64,000 nucleotides of DNA from Vagococcus penaei (GTDB taxonomy: Bacteria; Bacillota; Bacilli; Lactobacillales; Vagococcaceae), in the NCBI RefSeq assembly GCF_001998885.1, contig NZ_CP019609.1, forward strand, positions 1,104,001 to 1,168,000, written 5' to 3'. How positions within the stretch are numbered: the stretch's first letter is position 1; the number at the start of each line of letters is the position of its first letter. A program made the position numbers and the translations under genes. Positions 40,438-56,327 of the stretch are shown one piece after another. The notes beneath the pieces were generated by a model. That model did not search any database. It saw only the letters and a list, made by a program, of their open reading frames with translations, and had not been told where the DNA came from.

Positions 40438-40457
40438 AGCAGTCCTTAAGGACTGCT
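40438..40457. repeat. 20-bp target-site duplication of IS1182 copy 2, left copy
   Basis: AGCAGTCCTTAAGGACTGCT, a perfect 20-bp palindrome, repeated exactly at 41993-42012 on the other side of the IS. In the parent IS6 gene it encoded the codons for QSLRTA. Its TTA also gives the IS1182 transposase its stop codon. Confidence 0.85.
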
Positions 40458-41915
40458 CAGATTGAAGACAAACCAGTTGCTCATAAAGGGTAATTGGTTT
40501 GTTTTTTTGTATCTTATCATTATTTTTGATAAAATTCCCAAAATAGATAAAAAAATAGAGCCCTTCAGGTCTCTTAATTTAAGCATTTTTGCTAATTTTT
40601 TAATGTTAAGGCATGCGAAAGTGAGCCCAATTTTCATGTGCATTTTTTCTTTCCCAATTAAATTAGTGTAACGTAAGCCATGAAATTCTTTTGCCGTTCC
40701 AAATAATCGCTCAATTGTTTGTTTTCGATTATTATATATAGCTTTCATTCCAAGGGAATGACGTATGTCTTCACAACGTTCCATATCATTTTCCCATAAA
40801 TGTCGTTGAATTAATTTCCTCTTTTCTTTTGACTCAGTACAATAGGCAATCAAAGGGCATTGACTACAATCAGACGTATTACTTTTGTATTCACGATATC
40901 CGTCTCTGTTAGTTGTTGTATAGCTTAAAATTTTCACATTAGGGCAGATATATTGATCGTAGTATTCATCGTAAACATAATCATGTTTTTTATAAAATCC
41001 TTTTTTGGTCATAGGTCTTTTATATGGAAAAATAGGTGTTAAATTATTTTGAAATAATAAATGGGCTATACCAGGTGTTTTGTATCCAGCGTCCATTACT
41101 AATTTATCTAAGGTAAAGTGACTTTGTAATTTATTATAGATATCGATGAATGTCCGACTATCATGTTGATTACCAGGATGAGTTGTATATCCTAAAACCC
41201 AACCATTCTTGTCACATGCTACTTGTGCAGCATAAGCAAAAACCTGTTTATGCTCTCCTTTATGGAACCAACCACTCTCATCATCTGTTTTACTAATTTT
41301 TTTATGTTTTACCTGATTTTCACTTTCCTCTCTTCTTTTTAAGGGCTTTTTTAATCTTTTTTCTCTATCTATTTCAACTTCTTTTTGTAGTGATTCCACA
41401 TAAAAAAGAGTTTCTTCAGTAACTTCGTTACTTTCATATTTTTTATTATTTGCATGTGCTTTTATATGAGTACCATCAATAAATACTTCAGAAGTATCCA
41501 CTAATTCAGCTTCAATACACTGTTCTAATATGCCGTAAAATATTTGTTCAAAGATATCTGTACCACGAAATCTTCTAGAATAATTTTTGCCAAAGGTTGA
41601 GAAGTGAGGAACAGCATCTTCGATATCCAAACCTAAAAACCAGCGATAAGCCATGTTAACCTCAACATCTTTAATAGTTTGTCTCATACTTTTTATACCA
41701 TAAAGATACTGAATCAACGGAAGTTTAATTAATAGAACCGGATCTATACTAGGGCGGCCATTTGATTCATCGTATTTATCTTCAACTAACTTATAAATAA
41801 AATTAAAATCTACATATTTATCAATATCTCTTAATAGATGTTCCTTGGGAACTAAATCTTCTAGAGAATAAAAACCAATTTGATTACGTTTGCTCATATC
41901 TTGTTTTTTTAGCAT
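40446..41915 (-). CDS. IS1182-family transposase, copy 2
   Basis: 489 residues, DDE transposase of the IS1182 family. Catalytic regions: VFIDGTHIKAHA near 147, VMDAGYKTPGIA near 272 and the Glu in RKQTIERLFGTAKE near 415; a Cys motif CSQCPLIAYC lies at about 352. The ATG at 41915 follows AAAAGGAG. The IS ends at 40458, but the frame continues through the boundary: the last codons (SSP) and the TAA at 40446 belong to the flanking palindrome. The element therefore has no stop of its own in this frame. Confidence 0.92.
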   Translation of the reverse strand: MLKKQDMSKRNQIGFYSLEDLVPKEHLLRDIDKYVDFNFIYKLVEDKYDESNGRPSIDPVLLIKLPLIQYLYGIKSMRQTIKDVEVNMAYRWFLGLDIEDAVPHFSTFGKNYSRRFRGTDIFEQIFYGILEQCIEAELVDTSEVFIDGTHIKAHANNKKYESNEVTEETLFYVESLQKEVEIDREKRLKKPLKRREESENQVKHKKISKTDDESGWFHKGEHKQVFAYAAQVACDKNGWVLGYTTHPGNQHDSRTFIDIYNKLQSHFTLDKLVMDAGYKTPGIAHLLFQNNLTPIFPYKRPMTKKGFYKKHDYVYDEYYDQYICPNVKILSYTTTNRDGYREYKSNTSDCSQCPLIAYCTESKEKRKLIQRHLWENDMERCEDIRHSLGMKAIYNNRKQTIERLFGTAKEFHGLRYTNLIGKEKMHMKIGLTFACLNIKKLAKMLKLRDLKGSIFLSILGILSKIMIRYKKTNQLPFMSNWFVFNLSSP

Positions 41916-42366: not shown

Positions 42367-42657
42367 ATGACAACTAACAGAAAACCGAGACGGACCTTTA
42401 AAGAATCATTTAAGAAACAAATGGTGGAACTCCATAAATCAGGAAAACCTAGAAAAGATATTTTAAGAGAATATGATCTAACGCCATCAACTTTTGACAA
42501 ATGGGTCAAACAGTACAATCAGTCAGGATCATTCAAAGAGAAAGATAATTTGACGCCAGAAGAAAAAGAGTTGCGTGAATTACGTAAACTAAATAAAGAA
42601 TTGATGATGGAGAATGATATTTTAAAGCAAGCAGCGCTGATATTCGGACGAAAGTAG
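42367..42657 (+). CDS. IS3-family transposase OrfA
   Basis: 96 residues: a helix-turn-helix DNA-binding domain (RRTFKESFKKQMVELHKSG...REYDLTPSTFDKWVKQY) followed by a leucine-zipper-like helix (LRELRKLNKELMMENDILKQAA), the standard OrfA. Ribosomes that shift -1 at 42621-42627 make the OrfAB transposase; those that do not stop at 42657 and make this regulator. Confidence 0.93.
   Translation: MTTNRKPRRTFKESFKKQMVELHKSGKPRKDILREYDLTPSTFDKWVKQYNQSGSFKEKDNLTPEEKELRELRKLNKELMMENDILKQAALIFGRK
42621..42627 (+). promoter_or_regulatory. -1 ribosomal slippery site of the IS3 element
   Basis: T TTA AAG, aligned to the orfA frame, is a classic X XXY YYZ heptamer. A -1 shift there leads into an open frame (FKASSADIRTKVEVVRKNKKK) that continues without a stop into orfB. 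Confidence 0.72.
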
Positions 42658-42698
42658 AAGTTGTTAGAAAAAATAAAAAGAAGTACAGTGTATCAGCG

Positions 42699-43496
42699 AT
42701 GTGTCGAAAATTAGAAATTTCTCGTGGGGCTTATTACTATGAAGTTAAAAGAAAAAAATCAGAAGCTATTGTTGAAAAAGCAGTCATTGAGTCCTTCACA
42801 AATAGCCGTAACTCCTACGGAGCAAGAAGAATTAAAGATGATTTAAACGATCAAGAATTAATTGTTTCAAGAAGAAGGATACGACGAATCATGAATAAGT
42901 TCAATTTCATTTCAAGCTACACAACACTGAAATTTAAGCCACAGGCAACGAGTAAAAATGAACAGAAAATCGCTAATGTTTTATCACGTCAATTTGATAG
43001 AATGCAACCTATGGAAGCTTTAGTGACAGATTTAACCTATGTTAAAGTAGGTCAAAAGTGGCATTATGTCTGCTTTATTCTTGATTTATTCAATCGAGAA
43101 ATAGTTGGCTATTCTAGTGGTCCTAACAAATCTGTGGACCTTGTGTTACAGGCAATCGGAACGATTGAACAGCCATTAGATGATGTTGAAATTTTTCATA
43201 CAGACCGAGGAAAAGAATTTGATAATCAAAGTATTGATGAATTATTAGCTGCGTTTCAGATACAGCGTTCTTTATCACGCCCTGGTTGTCCCTATGATAA
43301 CGCCGTGGCAGAAGCAACTTATCGAGCATTTAAGATTGAGTTTATTTATCAACAATCTTTTGAATCATTGTTCGAACTGCAATATGAGTTAATGGATTAT
43401 GTCAATTGGTGGAACAAGTTTAGAAAACATGGCAAGCTTGGGTATCAATCTCCGATTAATTACCGTTTAGATTGGGAGTTGAAACAGGCTATTTAG
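42699..43496 (+). CDS. IS3-family transposase OrfB (catalytic part of OrfAB)
   Basis: 265 residues from the first ATG in frame, but probably made as part of OrfAB by the upstream frameshift. It has an HTH_21-type region (YGARRIKDDLND) and an rve integrase core: first Asp in VTDLTYVKVGQKWHY, second in FHTDRGKEFDN, Glu in NAVAEATYRAFKIE. All three DDE residues are present, so the element may be active. Confidence 0.93.
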   Translation: MCRKLEISRGAYYYEVKRKKSEAIVEKAVIESFTNSRNSYGARRIKDDLNDQELIVSRRRIRRIMNKFNFISSYTTLKFKPQATSKNEQKIANVLSRQFDRMQPMEALVTDLTYVKVGQKWHYVCFILDLFNREIVGYSSGPNKSVDLVLQAIGTIEQPLDDVEIFHTDRGKEFDNQSIDELLAAFQIQRSLSRPGCPYDNAVAEATYRAFKIEFIYQQSFESLFELQYELMDYVNWWNKFRKHGKLGYQSPINYRLDWELKQAI

Positions 43497-46838: not shown

Positions 46839-47186
46839 TTAATCTTTTGCAACCAATACTATTTTTTTCGCTTTTTGTTTCACAACGACTTGAGTCGATA
46901 GTGACCGTTTTACCACCAAGCGTTTTTTATCTGAGCGCTTGACAGTAAAAAACACTAAAATGTCATTGGGAGCTCCCTTCATCGCGACACGATAACTACC
47001 CCCAGGCAGTGCTGAAAAATGTACGCGCCCTTTTTTATGACTAATGGCTAGCAACTCTTGACCATTGCGTTTCAATAATTTTTTCCCACGCTTTGGGTAG
47101 ATGATAAAGGTGACACCTTCGATCCCATGATTTCTCTTATCTACATAATAAAAAACCAAATCATACTTTTTTTCGCTAAACGCCAA
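46839..47186 (-). pseudogene. Out-of-frame C-terminal tail of the first sortase (SpaA-like domain)
   Basis: This frame (up to 115 codons) overlaps the sortase end by 46 bases and has only a TTG start with no ribosome-binding site. From its eighth residue it reads YDLVFYYVDKRNHGIEGVTF...KKGRVHFSALPGGSYRV..., a pattern like SpaA/prealbumin domains (D...GxxF, then xxGxxxFxxLPxGxYxx). Adding one A to the A7 tract at 47167-47173 fuses it to the sortase and gives exactly 384 residues, the length of the neighbouring sortase that has a similar tail. I therefore treat it as the displaced tail of that gene. Confidence 0.7.
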
Positions 47187-47992
47187 GCAAATAGTGTTTT
47201 AATCAGTAGAAAACTTAATAGTGCAAGGACACAAGCGATAATTAATAGTAGGCCTACCTCTTTCGTTTTTAAGTTTTTTTCACTTGTGTCTTTTGCTTTA
47301 GCTAATTCCTTCGTCACTGGCACGCGCTTTCCGGTGACAATTAACCGATGGGTATTAATCATATATGGTGTGCACGTTAGTAGAGACACAAGGTCTTGTC
47401 CTGTTTGTAGCTTAATAACCTCAATCTCTTCTGGCAACACAACAGCAACATCATTCACTTGATAGGCTAGCGTGTCACCTAAAACGTCAATTAAAAAATA
47501 ATCACCTGTCTTTAATTTATCTAGCTCTCGAAATAAAACACGTTCCGCCAAGCCACGATGAGCAGAAATAACAGAGTGCGTACTGTCCCCTCCAACAGGT
47601 AAAGACGTGCCTGGCAACACCCCGGCTCCCTCTTCCAATATATCATTGTTAATCGTATCGTAAATTGGAACGGTCACATCAAGGGTAGGAATCGTAATTG
47701 CACCAATCAAATGACTAGCCAATTTCTTTCCACCATCTGTTCGATTGACCTGACTATCATTAAAGGGATCATGATCAACAACGAGTCCATCGACTTTTAT
47801 TTGATTATTTTTTTCAACTAATTTTTTTCGGCGTTCGGCCAATTTAGTTTCTTGTTGCTCATTGTAGGTTGCCATACGTTTCTGATCAATTAAGTAATTA
47901 ATCCCGTTCACATAAAAGGGATACGTAAATAATAAAATACCCGCTAAGAACAGACTGATAATAATAAATTTATTACGAAATTTTTTGCTCAT
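47141..47992 (-). CDS. Class C pilus sortase (frameshifted near its 3' end)
   Basis: 283 residues in the present frame. N-terminal membrane anchor at about 8-27, a class C lid with Asp75-Pro76-Phe77 (DHDPFND), catalytic His145 in SAHRGL, Cys207 in LLTCTPYMINTHRLIV and Arg216, then a second membrane segment at about 246-266. It would join pilin subunits through lysine isopeptide bonds on the outer face. After RLAKK the frame shifts at an A7 tract and ends seven codons later (MIWFFIM). The catalytic part is complete, so activity may survive. It starts 1 base after the other sortase gene. Confidence 0.9.
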   Translation of the reverse strand: MSKKFRNKFIIISLFLAGILLFTYPFYVNGINYLIDQKRMATYNEQQETKLAERRKKLVEKNNQIKVDGLVVDHDPFNDSQVNRTDGGKKLASHLIGAITIPTLDVTVPIYDTINNDILEEGAGVLPGTSLPVGGDSTHSVISAHRGLAERVLFRELDKLKTGDYFLIDVLGDTLAYQVNDVAVVLPEEIEVIKLQTGQDLVSLLTCTPYMINTHRLIVTGKRVPVTKELAKAKDTSEKNLKTKEVGLLLIIACVLALLSFLLIKTLFAWRLAKKSMIWFFIM

Positions 47993-47993
47993 C

Positions 47994-49148
47994 TTAGTCT
48001 GTCCCTCGATTCTTAATTCGATAACTCTTTACTTTTTTCCGTCCTTTAATCTTAAAGTACTTACTACGGTAACGCGTCACATAAAGCATTATATCTCCTG
48101 GAAGTAACTTCTTATTTAATGGTATTAACAGATATTTTTTCCCTGGCAAACGACTAATTTGAATGCGACCTTTACTATCTGACACTAAAATAACCGGTTG
48201 ATTGTTTTTAAGACAAGGTTTTCTACGAATGTATTCAACTAACTGAAACGATTCATAAGCAAGGGGGTGTTTAGGATCAAATAACCTAAAATCAACTTTA
48301 TAGTTTTGATGGCTCGTACGATAAAGTCTTACTTGACGCCAAATAACACTCACGAAAAATAAAACAAGTAAGGCAATCAGTAATAAATACCCAACTAATT
48401 GGCGCGAATTTTTCTGAATTATTTCTTTTTGTGCCTTTTCTAGCTTTTGTTTAGGTAACGCAACACGATGTCCTCGCACTAACAAACGATGAGTATTTAC
48501 CATATACGGTGTGCATGTGACTAACGTCAGTAAATCTTCTCCAGGTACCATAACTATATCATCTAAATTAGTCGGTAAGACCGTCTTAATTTGGTCTACT
48601 TGATACGCACTTTTTTTCCCAAGCACACTTAAATAAATAACATCTCCAGCAACTAATTTATCTAAATTAGTAAAGAGTAATTTTTCCGATAATCCTGTAT
48701 GTCCTGTAATGACTGAGTGCGTACTGTCTCCACCTATAGGTAAGGAGGTGCCTGGCAAGACTGTCGCTCCTTCTTGCAGAAAGTCAGCCGTTGTTTTGTC
48801 AAACACCGGCAGTTGCACATCAATTTTAGGTATTTGAATAACACCTATCAGATGCTCTTTCACGACCTCGTCAGATAATCGTTGGTTCTTGCCCACATCA
48901 TTGAACACATCTTCGGATAACCCAGCACTAATACCATCTGCTGTCAATTTCTCTTGTTTCTTTTTCAACTGCTCACGCTGTTTTTCGAGTTCTTGTTCAC
49001 TTTTTTGTTGATACTTTTGAACCCGTTGGTAATCAAACTGATTATTAATGACATTTGATACGAAAGGATATAAGAACAATAAAGCCCCCATAACAAACAT
49101 ACTAACCATGATGATTTTTAGTCCCATTGATAAGTATGTCTCTTTCAT
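47994..49148 (-). CDS. Class C pilus sortase with a C-terminal cytoplasmic extension
   Basis: 384 residues. Membrane anchor at about 9-32, catalytic His150 (TGHTGL), Cys212 (LVTCTPYMVNTHRLLV) and Arg221, second membrane segment at about 252-270. The lid region reads EDVFND where most class C enzymes have DPF or DPW. Beyond residue 285 a 100-residue basic tail contains ILVSDSKGRIQISRLPGKKYLL, like the end of a SpaA domain; by topology it faces the cytoplasm. The ATG at 49148 follows GGGGTG. It lies downstream of the major pilin behind a possible attenuating terminator. Confidence 0.9.
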   Translation of the reverse strand: MKETYLSMGLKIIMVSMFVMGALLFLYPFVSNVINNQFDYQRVQKYQQKSEQELEKQREQLKKKQEKLTADGISAGLSEDVFNDVGKNQRLSDEVVKEHLIGVIQIPKIDVQLPVFDKTTADFLQEGATVLPGTSLPIGGDSTHSVITGHTGLSEKLLFTNLDKLVAGDVIYLSVLGKKSAYQVDQIKTVLPTNLDDIVMVPGEDLLTLVTCTPYMVNTHRLLVRGHRVALPKQKLEKAQKEIIQKNSRQLVGYLLLIALLVLFFVSVIWRQVRLYRTSHQNYKVDFRLFDPKHPLAYESFQLVEYIRRKPCLKNNQPVILVSDSKGRIQISRLPGKKYLLIPLNKKLLPGDIMLYVTRYRSKYFKIKGRKKVKSYRIKNRGTD

Positions 49149-49214: not shown

Positions 49215-50834
49215 TTAAACTTCTGCTTCAGCTCTAGAACGACGGTACCAAACAATAGCTCCTGCCATTAAAACAGTCCCTGCTGCTAAGAACATGTAGA
49301 TTCCGTTACCACCTGTTGATGGTAATAATCCTTTTTTGATATTCTCAATTGATAATGTTTGTGTCGCATAATCATCTTTGATAACATCAAATTTAACTGG
49401 TTTCGTTAATAACGCATAGCCTTCAGGTGCTTCAAACTCGACTAAAGCATATGATATTCCACCTGTTAATTTAGCTGAATATTCTAACCCTTTTATTTCA
49501 AACAAGCCTTCTGCATTTGATTCAAACGCTGTTGCTGTTGCTTCATCATTTGCCCAAGTGTATTTTCCATCTTTCAATGTTGCATAAGCAATCACTTTAT
49601 TATCGGCATCCACACGAGCTAATTTAAATTTTGCTCCAGCTAATGTTTGTCCACTTTTTAGATCAACTTTTTTAAATTTCTTTGCACCAGTAAATACTTC
49701 TGGTCCTGTAACTGGTTTATCTGGTGTTCCAGGATCTGTTGGATCTGTTGGTTTATCTGGGATTTCTGGATTCGTTGGATCAGTTGGTTTGTCGGGATAA
49801 TCTGTTGGTGGTGTCACTGGCCATTTTGGTTTATCTTCTGGACGTGTCACTGTTCCTAACTCAACATAAGCCGAGTTATTAATACCTAAATCAATTTGAG
49901 CATCTGATGATAAGATTACATCATAAGTAATTGATACACGCTTACCTGCTAACGCTAGAACTGCTGGCGATTCAACATTAAAGTCAATGATATAGCCACG
50001 TTTTGACGCATCTGTATAAATAATATAATCTGTACCTTTTGTTAAACTAGCTACTTTAACCGTATCTTTAATAACTGACATTCCAGCATCTGGCGTATCT
50101 GTAAGACGGTAGTAATGTTTATCTTTGATATTCCATGGTAAGCCTGCTGTAATCCCATATGAGAATGGTTTACCAATTTCAACGTTAAAGAAATCTTGCC
50201 CGTTAATAGTTGTCTTTAACGCTGCTTTTGTTTCATCTGTTAAATCCTTGTCAATTAATTTTTGTTTTTCATTTTTAGGGTACAAGTGAATCATTGTATT
50301 CACTGTCTCCGTATTACCTTTATAGACTGGTAATGTTAACACAATTGGTGCGGCTTTTTCGGAAACGTTTGATGGTGAATTTGTTTCAACGAATAAATAC
50401 GATGCGTACCCACCATCTTTTTTCATTGGTAAGTCAGTAAAGGTGGCAACACCCTCACCAGCTGTTACGACTTTATCCCCAACTTTTGTTGCATAGCTAG
50501 GTGCATAACTAGCCGCTTTTGCATCAGCAACAATTTTTGCTGTTGCTTGCTTGTCATCATTAGTTGCTAATAATTTTGTGTATTCAGACGACACATCATA
50601 CACTTCAAATGTCACACCATTTAGCGGTTTTCCACCAAAATCGGCCATCTCTTCTCCCGTATTTTGTTTTGGATACGGTGTTTTCAGAGACTCACCATTT
50701 TCAAATACCCGTTTGTGTAAATTAACGGTAACCGTTTCTTCTGCTGCTTGAGCTGTTACTCCTGCTGTTAGTGTAACCAACATCGGAAACAGTAAAACTA
50801 ATACTGAAATAATTTTTCCAAGTGTCTTATTCAT
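49215..50834 (-). CDS. Major pilin (SpaA/EbpC-type, LPXTG)
   Basis: 539 residues. Signal peptide cut after AQA near residue 30; pilin motif YPKN at 185-188 whose Lys187 would be the polymerisation lysine; fimbrial isopeptide domain; a Pro-rich spacer of PTDP/PDKP repeats near 340-375; a CnaB/SpaA domain with the E-box YALVEFEAPEGYAL; sorting signal LPSTG, hydrophobic helix and RRSRAE tail. It forms the pilus shaft through the class C sortases downstream. Its ATG overlaps the minor pilin stop by 8 bases. Third gene of the operon, as ebpC is in ebpABC. Confidence 0.92.
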   Translation of the reverse strand: MNKTLGKIISVLVLLFPMLVTLTAGVTAQAAEETVTVNLHKRVFENGESLKTPYPKQNTGEEMADFGGKPLNGVTFEVYDVSSEYTKLLATNDDKQATAKIVADAKAASYAPSYATKVGDKVVTAGEGVATFTDLPMKKDGGYASYLFVETNSPSNVSEKAAPIVLTLPVYKGNTETVNTMIHLYPKNEKQKLIDKDLTDETKAALKTTINGQDFFNVEIGKPFSYGITAGLPWNIKDKHYYRLTDTPDAGMSVIKDTVKVASLTKGTDYIIYTDASKRGYIIDFNVESPAVLALAGKRVSITYDVILSSDAQIDLGINNSAYVELGTVTRPEDKPKWPVTPPTDYPDKPTDPTNPEIPDKPTDPTDPGTPDKPVTGPEVFTGAKKFKKVDLKSGQTLAGAKFKLARVDADNKVIAYATLKDGKYTWANDEATATAFESNAEGLFEIKGLEYSAKLTGGISYALVEFEAPEGYALLTKPVKFDVIKDDYATQTLSIENIKKGLLPSTGGNGIYMFLAAGTVLMAGAIVWYRRSRAEAEV

Positions 50835-51897
50835 TCTTCTCTCTCCTTTTGCTTAATAAAATCAATGCACCTGACATTAACAGACACGCTCCTAATGCCG
50901 CTACAATTGTTTTTTGTTCATTAGTTTGTGGTAATTTGCCAGTCGAACTTGTTAATCGTGGCTGATTTTTACCGGGAACTGCCTCTTTAGTTGGTGGCGT
51001 TCCATCTAACGACTGATTGACAATACTTGGTTCTAATTGCTCAACCACCTGTTTTGATAAGTGATTAGCTTGAAACTTAGTTAGCCGTTGTTGATTAACA
51101 TAAATTACCTGATTTTGTTGTGCATCTTCACCATCACGCGTTAAGTTAATCGCTATTTTTTTGGCCTGCTCCGTTATTTCGTAGCCATCGGGTGCTTTGA
51201 CTTCTTCCATATAATAATGGCCAGTTTCAAACGTTCTCGTAGGTACTCGAACTAAACCGGTAGTATCAGATACAAACAGCGTTGCTTGGTCTTTCTTATC
51301 TCCCCATTTCATTGGGCTAGACGACACCAGGTAATCTTTAGCCCCTTGTTCTGTTAGACGATAAATGACAAATTCTGCCCCCTCTAAAGGTATCTTAGTT
51401 TCTGACACTTTAAAAAAGTAAATATCCCCATCAATCGGTACTAACTTGCCTTGAATCGTTGGTGATTCTGAGGCTAAATTAACTGGTGTTAGTAAGATTG
51501 GGTATAGACGATTTTCCTCCCCCGAAGTCGAGACACTATCTACCTCTTGCATAATTAAATAGTAGGCTAGACTATCTGTTTGCTGATATGTTAATGGTAG
51601 AGTCAATGGAATGACCTGTTTAGAATTCAAGGTTTGTTCCATTAATTTAGTTAATTTATGCTCTTTAATAAAGTTAGTCGCTTCAGTGACATCGGCTGTA
51701 ATCTTTTTTTGTTCAGCCTCTTGATACTCTTCTTTAGTTAATGAATAAACCGACAAAACTGGATTTGTTATCAATTGTTCAGAAATTGGATAAAATAAAT
51801 CCAGCGTAACCATCTGTTGTGTTGTCGCATGCGCCACTCGAGGGGTGATGATTAAAAAAAGTAAGAGACAAACAATGCGCTTAATAACTGTCCTCAT
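50827..51897 (-). CDS. Minor (base) pilin with LPXTN sorting signal
   Basis: 356 residues from the ATG at 51897, which overlaps the adhesin stop as ATGA. Signal peptide VCLLLFLIITPRVAHA; SpaA-type domain with PLEGAEFVIYRLTEQG and the E-box YYMEEVKAPDGYEI; sorting signal LPQTNEQ, hydrophobic helix and KRREKNE tail. The fifth residue of the signal is Asn rather than Gly, seen in some pilus base subunits that are passed to the housekeeping sortase. Position between tip and shaft genes fits EbpB. Confidence 0.87.
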   Translation of the reverse strand: MRTVIKRIVCLLLFLIITPRVAHATTQQMVTLDLFYPISEQLITNPVLSVYSLTKEEYQEAEQKKITADVTEATNFIKEHKLTKLMEQTLNSKQVIPLTLPLTYQQTDSLAYYLIMQEVDSVSTSGEENRLYPILLTPVNLASESPTIQGKLVPIDGDIYFFKVSETKIPLEGAEFVIYRLTEQGAKDYLVSSSPMKWGDKKDQATLFVSDTTGLVRVPTRTFETGHYYMEEVKAPDGYEITEQAKKIAINLTRDGEDAQQNQVIYVNQQRLTKFQANHLSKQVVEQLEPSIVNQSLDGTPPTKEAVPGKNQPRLTSSTGKLPQTNEQKTIVAALGACLLMSGALILLSKRREKNE

Positions 51898-54800
51898 TTT
51901 TTTCTCAACCCCTTTCGTTGCCAAACCAGATAACTACAGCCAGATAGACCAGATAAACCGACTAACGTGATCGCTGTCCATTTGTTTCCTGGGTTGCCAA
52001 AACCACCAGTAGCCGGTAAAATACCTCTACGAACAATTGGTTTCGGAGGGATAACCCTAGGTGTATTCGATACGACATTACTTTGATTGAACGTTAATGT
52101 GGCTTGGTTTGGAATACCACCATTTTTTATATAGTTCTCAATAGCAGTTGGCGCAGTATCGGCTTTAATTTTAGTTGGTATGATAATGGTATAGGTTTCC
52201 CCAGCTAAATACGCGTAACTACCATTGATTTTATTTAGACTAAATTGAACTGTATTATTACTTTTATTGACTAGCAAGCTTCCTTGATTTTTAATATCTT
52301 TCCATTGGCTATCATAGACTTTTATGTCTTTTTCTTGAATATCCAATATAGGCTCTAACTTGTCAGTTATTGTTACTGACTCCCAAGAACTAGCATCTTG
52401 ACTAAATGTTGGCTTAATTTCCCAATTAAAAATATCCTCTTTATTCGTCAGTGTAATCTTCTCTTGGCTATTGACCTTTTTAGAAATAACAGGTTTATCT
52501 TTTGGTTCCATGACCACACCTACTCGAAGGGGCTCAACAACTTGTAAGTCATTCAACGCTAAAGCGAACGAATTCCATGCGGCACGCTCATTTTCATTGA
52601 TAGCAGTGTTTAATAACTTAGGATTCGTGATATCTTTCGCTTCTGGTGCTTTCATTCTGAATGATAACGTGATATTTTCTCCAGGATTCAACGTAACATC
52701 CTTATTTAAGGCGACTTTGAAACTGCGTATTGTTGACCAATTTCCTATTTGTGAAGCAGTTAGCCAATTTGGCTCTGCCGAATTTGTTGGATTCGTCATC
52801 TTCACCACATTATCCGGATACTTAACATTCGCCATCAAATCATCACGTTTAGGATTCGCTGTTGAACTGTACAGAACAGTTACTTTACCGTTCCAGTCAT
52901 TCGGTATTGCTATTGGACCTGTCAGAGTTGGTGTGAATTGACTATTTCTTGGTAGATTATCTGTAATACCTAAATCACCGACTGACGGCAATACATCTAG
53001 CATTGTCAATTTACGAATTTTATCTTGTCCAGAATTAGTTAATCTGAGTTGATAATCGATTATTCCCCCTGGAATAGTATGTCCCATTAAAGAATAATTG
53101 TTATCCCTCTCTCCTTTGACTAATTTCTCTGTCTTAACACTATTTTTTCTTAGTATTTGATATTGATTGTCTGTGTGTACACGATAATGGTATTGTCCAA
53201 GATTTGGATTCATAAATTCATAATTATACTCTACTTTATTTTTTATAATTGGAGAGTCATTATTACTACCAACCTTTAGCGTCGTACTCTTTTCTGCATA
53301 ACTATAAACTCCAATGTCCAATACATCCAACGCATCTTTTGTAATGTTGACATCTACTTCTGCTGTCAAATTCTCATCACGATTTAGTGAAGTAATGTTA
53401 TTATCCCACGATAATTCGACTAAGTGTCGTTTAGAATTTTGAAAGTTATCTAACGTTTTCCGATACGTACCATTCGCAAACCTTCCTGAATTTTGTGTCA
53501 ACACAACTCCTTCAGGTAACAGAACATATGATTTGAATGGACCATTTAGATACATTAACGAGCCAGCATCATTTTTAAAAGATACTTCTACCTTATTTGG
53601 CCCTTCTTTGACAATATTTCCGTCACTTGTAACAAATGCAACATCTGTTTGGGCTAAAGGATACGATGTTGAGGGTGGAGGAACTACTTTCGCTTGTCTA
53701 GGTCCTAAATATTTATTTTCATCTGTCACATTATAAAAATAGTAATTACTTTTAGCATCAATCACTTTTTGAGAAACTTTATTTATAACATCCCCTGTAG
53801 AATTAGGCTTGATGCTAAATTCTACAAACAATCGACCAACAGTAGTTTCCGGAGGTGGATTAATCATTTTGAATTCAATTTGAGACACATCATCCGTTGG
53901 TAATAACCCTAATAACTCTCTAGTATAAACAAGTTTGCCATCAATAATTTGGTTGCTCAAATTAGACCAATTAACTTGTCTACCTACAAGTTGGCCATTA
54001 ACAACTAAAGTAAGAGTTGATTGTGGTAACTCGTTTAAAGCAGCAATTCGATTATTATAAGCACCCATTTGAGGTAAAGTAATTTTCAAATTTTGTAATG
54101 TCAACTTATTATCAATTATATATGTCGTACTAAATTCCTTATTATTTCCAGTGGCTAAACTTTTCTGCAAGTTAGTAGCTGTCGCTTGATCTAAGAGTGG
54201 TCTACCATTTTGCGTAATACCAGCAAATCCATTGATCATGCCATAATGCATCGTCCAACTAAAACCTAGTCTTGCTGATTCATAAACAGTTGGCATCTTC
54301 ATATTATACGTATATGTATCACTTATAGTCCCTTCTCCATCTGTCGGGCCAAAGTGAGCTGGTGAAAATAAACTACCTGGAGTCGTAGGAACACTATCTT
54401 TCCCTGTAGCAGTTGTAACATCGGCACTTGCTGAACTATTAACTGTCACCCCATCTAACCCCACAGCTGAAATGGTTGCCTGATTAATTATCTTAGTATA
54501 ATTAGGGATATTAGCGGAAAATCTAGTACGAACTTGAAATTCCCGTTGAAACAGATAATCTGACATGGCTGTTTGACTTTCAATACTAGGTGCTACAATA
54601 TTCCAAGTTACTGTTTTATTACTACTGTTGTACTGATAACCCGTTGTAGTCGTAAAATCCATAAACTCTAAATATTCAGGAATCTTTTCTGTGATACTAA
54701 TAATTGTCCCAGGTTTAATAAATAGCTGACCTTGCTTTTTTTCGGGAATAGTCGCCGTTATTTTCCAAATTCCATAATCACCTGATATTGGCGGTTTTGT

Positions 54801-55850
54801 ATTATCTTTTCCGAGTGTCTGATCATAAGTTTTATCAATGGATACTTCAAATGATGAATTCACTGTCATTTCTGCCGTATCTGTCACTCTTGAAAAATCA
54901 TTTGCCTCAATAGAAGCATTTGCCTGTAATTTCGTTCCATTAAGCAATGAACCGTTTACTGTGTCCAACTCAACAAACGTTCGATAGGTTTGACCTGTTT
55001 TCATGAGCGGTATATTGTACACTAAACGATGGTTTCCTGAATCATAGTACGGGGTCACATCCGCTATTTGTAGTTCTTGTAAGTTTTGATTCATCTTTGT
55101 ATCTTTTGGTAAATTCACGATAAGCTGAGCATTATTATAATTCTTAAGTGCTCCAGTAACTTTTAATTCTAGCTTAAACACCGCTTTTGCCCCAGCATCA
55201 ATTTTAGGCGTTGCTGGATTTAACGACAAAGCAACATTATAAAGGGTTGAAGCGGATGCCTGTACCCAAGATTTTTTTGCTGTTTTAGGAACAATATTTA
55301 TAGGGGATTTCTTTAAAAAAGACATTGACTGATCATTTTGTTTTTTATTATCTTTTGATTTGGTCCTTTCTTCGAGTAGATTTTTTTCAACTTTAGTATC
55401 AGGTATGATACCAAGAGTGACCTCATTTAAGCTATTATCCTCATTATCTAAATCGATAGCCGTTAAATAACTAGCGTCTTTTATAGGAGGTAAAACAATT
55501 TTTTGATCAGTTGCTTTATCAGGCTTTCTATCCCATTCAATAATTATCTCATTCTCATTTACAACAATTAATTGACTCTTTACTTCTTCATCAAATTGAG
55601 AAAAATCTACTTCCATACTCTCAGGAAAAATAATTTTTGATTTTATACCTCCCTCTGATTTCATGTGGTAAGTCACTTCTGATTCTTCACCTAATTGGAT
55701 ATTTTCAATCGGTTTATCATCACTTGTTTTACTGAAAAAGCTCTCTTTCTCATTTTTTTCAGGAGATATCACCGAAACTGAAATAGCCGGTATGATAACT
55801 TGTATAACTAACAACAAAAATATAACTATGCCTATTTTTTTGTTTTTCAC
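51894..55850 (-). CDS. Pilus-associated large adhesin (tip protein candidate, LPXTG)
   Basis: About 1318 residues. Signal segment KKIGIVIFLLLVIQVIIPAISVSV, several repeated beta domains with Asn/Asp-rich loops (for example LSLNPATPKIDAGAKAVFKLEL and ITNSGQDKIRKLTMLDVLP, like isopeptide/DUF11-type domains), then the sorting signal LPATG, a hydrophobic helix and WQRKGLRKK. It is the first gene of the pilus operon and probably the tip, as in ebpA, but I see no VWA/MIDAS motif typical of EbpA. Start: GTG 55850, because TAAGGAGGTGA, a full Shine-Dalgarno, lies just upstream; two in-frame ATGs before it are alternatives. Confidence 0.83.
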   Translation of the reverse strand: MKNKKIGIVIFLLLVIQVIIPAISVSVISPEKNEKESFFSKTSDDKPIENIQLGEESEVTYHMKSEGGIKSKIIFPESMEVDFSQFDEEVKSQLIVVNENEIIIEWDRKPDKATDQKIVLPPIKDASYLTAIDLDNEDNSLNEVTLGIIPDTKVEKNLLEERTKSKDNKKQNDQSMSFLKKSPINIVPKTAKKSWVQASASTLYNVALSLNPATPKIDAGAKAVFKLELKVTGALKNYNNAQLIVNLPKDTKMNQNLQELQIADVTPYYDSGNHRLVYNIPLMKTGQTYRTFVELDTVNGSLLNGTKLQANASIEANDFSRVTDTAEMTVNSSFEVSIDKTYDQTLGKDNTKPPISGDYGIWKITATIPEKKQGQLFIKPGTIISITEKIPEYLEFMDFTTTTGYQYNSSNKTVTWNIVAPSIESQTAMSDYLFQREFQVRTRFSANIPNYTKIINQATISAVGLDGVTVNSSASADVTTATGKDSVPTTPGSLFSPAHFGPTDGEGTISDTYTYNMKMPTVYESARLGFSWTMHYGMINGFAGITQNGRPLLDQATATNLQKSLATGNNKEFSTTYIIDNKLTLQNLKITLPQMGAYNNRIAALNELPQSTLTLVVNGQLVGRQVNWSNLSNQIIDGKLVYTRELLGLLPTDDVSQIEFKMINPPPETTVGRLFVEFSIKPNSTGDVINKVSQKVIDAKSNYYFYNVTDENKYLGPRQAKVVPPPSTSYPLAQTDVAFVTSDGNIVKEGPNKVEVSFKNDAGSLMYLNGPFKSYVLLPEGVVLTQNSGRFANGTYRKTLDNFQNSKRHLVELSWDNNITSLNRDENLTAEVDVNITKDALDVLDIGVYSYAEKSTTLKVGSNNDSPIIKNKVEYNYEFMNPNLGQYHYRVHTDNQYQILRKNSVKTEKLVKGERDNNYSLMGHTIPGGIIDYQLRLTNSGQDKIRKLTMLDVLPSVGDLGITDNLPRNSQFTPTLTGPIAIPNDWNGKVTVLYSSTANPKRDDLMANVKYPDNVVKMTNPTNSAEPNWLTASQIGNWSTIRSFKVALNKDVTLNPGENITLSFRMKAPEAKDITNPKLLNTAINENERAAWNSFALALNDLQVVEPLRVGVVMEPKDKPVISKKVNSQEKITLTNKEDIFNWEIKPTFSQDASSWESVTITDKLEPILDIQEKDIKVYDSQWKDIKNQGSLLVNKSNNTVQFSLNKINGSYAYLAGETYTIIIPTKIKADTAPTAIENYIKNGGIPNQATLTFNQSNVVSNTPRVIPPKPIVRRGILPATGGFGNPGNKWTAITLVGLSGLSGCSYLVWQRKGLRKK

Positions 55851-56327
55851 GAACTCCATCACCTCCTTATGGGTCATTATTCCATTATGTATTCTTCAAT
55901 AATTATCATCCCCTTTATAAATAAGGTATTTATCTCATACACAAAATATAACATGTACTAAATAATAATAATTATCATAATTTTCCTTATTTCTGAAAAA
56001 AAAATAAGATATTTTTAATAATGTACGTTTTTAAATGATCATTTTATTAAAAAAAATCTAAAAAACAAAAAAATAACCAAATAAAGAAACTTTTTATGAA
56101 AATACCTCCTTTATTCAGTTGTTTACCTATATGACTAAAAAGCTTTATATATAAGCTTTTTATATTTTAATTACACACTGTTTTATATATTTGTATTTTT
56201 ACAGAACGATAAAAACATGCTATTATCCTATTTATAAGTTGTGCACAATAGGTTGATTACTTTTAGAAAAAATTCACACTTTGTTTGTGAAAAAAATTCA
56301 TGAAATAAAATAAGGGAGCAAATTAAG
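55851..56327. promoter_or_regulatory. Divergent control region of the pilus operon and its regulator
   Basis: 477 very AT-rich bases with no gene. For the plus strand, TTTACA (56198-56203), 17 bases and TATTAT (56221-56226) with an extended TGC give a good promoter for the regulator. A palindrome AAAAAGCTT/AAGCTTTTT (56137-56161) and an inverted repeat TTCACA/TGTGAA (56273-56291) are possible binding sites; the latter lies in the regulator's leader. I cannot choose one promoter for the pilus side among many A/T-rich options. Confidence 0.55.

Follow-up and report, generated by a model that had tools for sequence, protein, structure and literature searches.

A pilus operon with two class C sortases

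The window analyzed here is a 64,000-nucleotide stretch of DNA from Vagococcus penaei, part of a 2.37-Mb single-contig genome. On its minus strand lies a pilus operon that encodes a large fimbrial protein, two pilins with SpaA domains, and two class C sortases. Its features, in window positions, are as follows.

51894..55877, minus strand: large fimbrial protein with an isopeptide-forming domain (NCBIfam TIGR04226, 5.5e-15)
50827..51924, minus strand: second pilin, SpaA domain, LPQTN anchor (Pfam SpaA, 5.4e-11; Gram_pos_anchor, 1.4e-5)
49215..50834, minus strand: major pilin of the SpaH/EbpB family, SpaA domain, LPSTG anchor (NCBIfam NF033902, 5.6e-61; Pfam SpaA, 3.2e-16)
47994-49148, minus strand: sortase 2, whole gene (NCBIfam class_C_sortase, 1.1e-72)
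49056..49124, minus strand: sortase 2, first membrane helix, residues about 9-31 (by eye from the sequence)
48462..48839, minus strand: sortase 2, catalytic domain, residues 104-229, TLVTC (Pfam PF04203, 2.2e-24; NCBIfam class_C_sortase, 1.1e-72)
48339..48407, minus strand: sortase 2, second membrane helix, residues about 248-270 (hydropathy maximum of 2.9, 45 residues past the start of TLVTC; calculated on row L051, the same protein)
47997..48326, minus strand: sortase 2, basic tail with predicted CnaB/SpaA fold, residues 275-384, net charge +20 (cytoplasmic by its inferred topology)
47141..47992, minus strand: sortase 1, class C sortase, 283 aa in frame, tail out of frame (NCBIfam class_C_sortase, 2.7e-68)
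46842..47177, minus strand: displaced tail of sortase 1, basic domain with predicted CnaB/SpaA fold, in another frame (profile and model)

The two sortases score 244.3 and 230 bits against NF033745 (curated cutoff, 160). Catalytic motifs read from the sequence are TLVTC...R in sortase 2 and SLLTC...R in sortase 1, with a histidine upstream in both, and two membrane helices flank the catalytic domain in each protein (the second helix of sortase 2 was placed by hydropathy and the rest by eye). Class C sortases have an N-terminal lid with a D-P-aromatic motif; at the lid position, sortase 1 has DPF and sortase 2 has DVF. Among named relatives of sortase 2, one from Vagococcus sp. DIV0080 ranks first, and many from Enterococcus come next. 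The operon context suggests that the two enzymes polymerize pilins, and the SpaH/EbpB-family pilin is their likely substrate. In catalytic domain, number of helices, and gene position downstream of pilins, they resemble other class C sortases (NF033745), such as the Ebp pilus sortase of Enterococcus faecalis (PDB 24rr).

Transposase-like frames, identified by eye, adjoin the operon at 40446-41915 (minus strand) and 42367-43496 (plus strand). The locus is one of three pilus sortase loci within approximately 30 kb of chromosome (G000:C1:1150845-1179728). A further sortase locus of this genome (C1:605799-606458) has TLLTS where the catalytic cysteine is expected, is flanked by broken frames, and looks decayed.

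Sortase 2 extends for approximately 110 residues past its second membrane helix, and the extension is basic. Sortase 1 ends soon past its second helix, and an open frame at 46839-47186 that carries a tail overlaps it at a run of A. The original prediction was that both sortases share a basic C-terminal domain. We aligned 48 in-frame tails (less than 80% identical by an ungapped script measure, drawn from 57) with the displaced tail and scored each of the 49 rows against a profile from which it had been left out. The sortase 2 tail scored 74.2 bits (rank 41 of 49) and the displaced tail 81.0 bits (rank 34 of 49), establishing the shared domain as real, and at this score the displaced tail shows no visible decay. 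One of the 49 tails gave no match to its left-out profile. None of 40 shuffled versions of the displaced tail matched, nor did the five other reading frames of that stretch.

The displacement is not confined to this gene: a second sortase of the genome (C1:1177790-1178886) has a CnaB-like tail (41.1 bits) that is likewise out of frame next to an A run, with the break at a different place in the tail. Programmed slippage at the A run, yielding both tailed and tailless sortase 1, would account for two paralogues with tails out of frame beside such runs and for the score that the displaced tail of sortase 1 retains. However, no outstanding structure lies downstream of the run (z = -0.86), the two paralogues break at different sites, and runs of at least seven A occur in 22 of the 57 in-frame tails. 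Lysine codons are abundant in the tails, and with A runs this frequent such genes may therefore slip easily. Apart from these two, the short frames among the order-wide tail matches (at least 97) amount to one of 196 aa, and relatives hold intact tailed copies. Given that a recent indel or an assembly error accounts for the break equally well, we consider programmed slippage very unlikely.

Predicted fold, charge, and placement of the tail

AlphaFold models of both tails are beta-sandwiches (core pLDDT, 81 to 96), and the best structural matches of both (AF2; VIA matches) are CnaB/SpaA domains of pilins. A profile built from tails only matches the pilin GBS52 (3phs; 4.5e-12), SdrD (2.8e-6), and BcpA (8.7e-6). 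At an E value of ≤0.01, Pfam SpaA matches 27 of 47 tails; the displaced tail lies above the gathering score of 23.1 (25.3) and the sortase 2 tail below it. The fold signature is retained with a mean column identity of 31% over 47 tail rows. Structure prediction and profile comparison thus support a CnaB/SpaA (prealbumin-like) beta-sandwich, as was originally proposed. Neither a different fold nor a disordered, unconserved extension was found, with beta-sandwich models for both tails and tails occurring across the order. The best-matching solved class C chains align with sortase 2 to approximately residue 250 at most, or to residue 277 for 2w1k, and none matches the tail.

Although the predicted fold and the profile are common to the tail and to CnaB/SpaA pilin domains (PF17802; GBS52, 3phs; BcpA, 3kpt; 4oq1; SpyCatcher), the tail differs from these in being basic, in being cytoplasmic by topology, in lacking the isopeptide Lys and Glu, and in belonging to the enzyme rather than the substrate. 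At the columns that we take to hold the bond-forming residues of the intramolecular isopeptide, the two pilins of the window each carry K and E, whereas lysine occurs in 0 and glutamate in 1 of the 49 tails; as judged from the alignment, the tail is without the isopeptide-forming residues of the neighboring pilin domains. All 49 aligned tails carry a net positive charge (+4 to +32; median, +12). Two adjacent positions right behind the membrane helix are Lys or Arg in 43 and 39 of the 49 tails, and these residues are also favored at nine more columns of this alignment. The usual topology of the class, as known for the family, has two helices with the catalytic part outside; together with the positive charge, it supports the predicted cytoplasmic placement of the tail.

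Among 132 sortases, the chain past the second helix is either shorter than 70 residues (81 rows) or at least 90 residues long (51 rows), with none between. The segment takes three forms: short (net charge of -1 to +11), lysine-rich and of low complexity (e.g., L117), or a basic CnaB-like domain. Short-tailed proteins end 7 to 65 residues past the helix, some with tails that are not basic; one more row has no measurable helix. Two sortases outside the CnaB-tailed branch of the tree described below, L117 (1677-2924, plus strand) and L006 (1453-2394, plus strand), have lysine/arginine-rich low-complexity tails.

Distribution and evolutionary history

Within the genus, full-length tailed sortases were found in 6 of 14 genomes, counting that of the window. 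Across the order, the tail profile (E ≤ 1e-6) gave at least 97 matches in at least 46 of 395 genomes, these counts being lower bounds with up to 11 candidates scored per genome. At least 90 of the matches, in at least 42 genomes, lie in frames of 370 to 460 aa, whose identity as sortases was checked at a subset of loci; 4 are in adhesin-sized frames (1002 to 2771 aa), and the remaining 3, which include the two displaced tails of this genome, are in short frames. The extension is thus conserved among class C sortases beyond this genome. Samples of 398 genomes each at class and phylum level, drawn across groups with this order among them, gave no sortase-sized match outside the order at an E value of ≤1e-5. 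Another tailed frame lies within 1.7 kb of 49 of the 90 tailed frames. At two loci (G009 L028, 583-2394, minus strand; G001:C2:3454-4929), single frames of 603 to 610 aa contain two sortase-like matches each.

Sortase 2 also matches 587 plasmid records, 81 of which cover at least 80% of it. Tandem tailed sortases are encoded on pBEE99 (the E. faecalis Bee pilus) and on pSH74 of Lactococcus lactis NCDO712, and tandem class C sortase genes resembling these occur on plasmids of Enterococcus faecium, Enterococcus casseliflavus, Carnobacterium, Vagococcus carniphilus, and other Lactococcus; one E. faecium plasmid record has no annotated sortase at the corresponding place. Bee srt-1 and srt-2, like SrtC1 (413 aa) and SrtC2 (392 aa) of pSH74, carry such a tail in each of the two tandem enzymes and differ from sortase 1 of the window in being full length in frame and plasmid borne. 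According to the portions available of PMC5152845, overexpression of the pSH74 cluster produces pilus-like appendages, and these portions do not mention the tail. In the four full-length sortases of Bee and pSH74, Pfam finds no SpaA domain at an E value of ≤0.01, a possible reason that the tail domain has been overlooked. The original prediction that no class C sortase with such a tail had been described therefore needs amending: carriers are in print, while the literature searched yielded no description of the tail domain. We regard the sortase-CnaB fusion as a new form of a known enzyme family, in which the enzymes are published and the domain is not described in any text that we found.

We built a tree of the 132 catalytic domains by a quick method; it is unrooted, and 51 of its 129 inner branches are open. 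All 50 CnaB-tailed rows fall in one 66-row branch (SH-aLRT, 96); the rest of that branch consists of 15 rows without a tail and one whose tail is displaced. With L117 scored as tailed, tail presence takes a minimum of nine changes on the tree, and starred branches make three of these unavoidable. For the most part, sortases encoded by the first and second genes of tandem pairs cluster apart on the tree, and tails prevail in both groups. The simplest reading of this quick, unrooted tree is one gain of the tail followed by several losses.

The ratio dN/dS was most informative for the pair L086/L087, which has many differences and no saturation and gave 0.17 for the tail and 0.07 for the catalytic part; in the other sets, the differences are few or near saturation. 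Among these, the second sortases of Bee gave 0.20 for the tail and 0.13 for the catalytic part, and the first sortases, with very few differences, gave 1.13 and 0.49. For Lactococcus, the values were 0.27 and 0.23 in second sortases and 0.57 for the tail in first sortases, whose catalytic part has no differences. L079/L080/L096 gave 0.18 and 0.03. Of two sets from L090/L092/L112, one gave 0.20 for the tail with the catalytic part not computable, and the other gave 0.08 for the catalytic part with the tail not computable. Purifying selection on the tail is thus clear in the one informative pair, and its signal is weak or unclear elsewhere. In the closely related genes L079/L080/L096, pS reaches 0.339 in the catalytic part but 0.028 in the tail, and so large a gap in silent differences would fit the exchange of a part by recombination.

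Possible roles of the tail

We tentatively propose that the tail docks the pilus polymerase from the membrane side and so keeps it at secretion sites, a role to which we give somewhat less than an even chance. A branch of Lactobacillales class C sortases would have gained a cytoplasmic domain of approximately 110 residues behind the second helix, one with the fold of the pilins that are polymerized, with positive charge, and with the isopeptide-forming residues absent. Sitting under the membrane, this domain would use its basic face and a beta-sandwich surface to hold the sortase at anionic-lipid/Sec secretion sites where pilins emerge. We favor docking because positive charge is the usual element shared by short, lysine-rich, and CnaB-like tails. 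A positively charged localization segment of sortases, reportedly short, is said to go back to work by Kline in 2009, and the tail could be a folded elaboration of it. According to PMC3516528, a positively charged segment takes part in the focal localization of sortases; the tail is likewise basic beside a membrane helix and differs in being a folded domain.

Several observations count against docking. The 15 tailless members of the CnaB-tailed branch indicate that the tail is dispensable, and a short basic tail would seem enough for localization, leaving the folded domain without explanation; moreover, some short tails are not basic. The folded domain may serve to bind a partner protein, to engage lipids in a defined geometry, or to pair the tandem sortases. 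The weak or unclear purifying selection outside the best pair and the one tail missed by its left-out profile also weigh against docking. The E. faecalis pilus sortase whose localization has been studied is presumably of the short-tailed kind. Excerpts of that study (PMC10107303) describe pili that appear away from septal sortase foci and suggest that the place of polymerized pili is independent of sortase localization.

The original prediction offered recognition of pilin precursors beside tethering at the secretion site. The predicted fold common to tail and pilins would suit a domain that, ahead of export or while it proceeds, binds the precursors or their ends on the cytoplasmic side. Against this, pilins are thought to be unfolded until export by Sec. 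Charge would also work against such binding because the sorting signals of LPXTG proteins in general, as described in excerpts of PMC10107303 and PMC12445088, themselves end in positively charged tails, and we hold substrate recognition to be improbable. Tethering is the better fit, because the tails are positive and because relatives have, in place of the domain, either a shorter and usually basic tail or a low-complexity one rich in lysine.

Two further explanations are unlikely in our view, to about the same degree. The beta-sandwiches of tandem sortases could mediate binding between the two tails, or of each tail to itself, to form a two-enzyme polymerase, as the frequent proximity of a second tailed frame and the mostly separate, mostly tailed first- and second-gene types would allow. 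Yet 41 of the 90 tailed frames have no second tail within 1.7 kb at the threshold used (with part of the candidates scored, partners may be missed), and basic charge on both tails disfavors direct contact. Alternatively, the tail could be a mere passenger with no particular role, a CnaB cassette that was acquired on one occasion, inherited with the enzyme, and frequently lost. Its repeated gain or loss on the tree and the two out-of-frame tails in this genome favor such a passenger, but the retained fold signature, the dN/dS of the best pair, a similar length, and positive charge throughout argue against it.

Returning to docking, a bolder extension, for which the chances are slim, is that the pilin-like domain serves as an inner-side scaffold coupling tandem sortases to Sec, so that a single complex would hand pilins from the translocon to the polymerase. 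If true, this scaffold would be a cytoplasmic half of the pilus assembly machine, for which we found no description. How pilus sortases stay where pilins exit is an open question, and the folded tail gives a removable handle on it. The tail is common to the enterococcal Bee pilus, Lactococcus plasmid pili, and many Vagococcus and Enterococcus loci. In all of these, a fold best known from the cell surface would, by topology, be used inside the cell, by an enzyme whose substrates carry that same fold.
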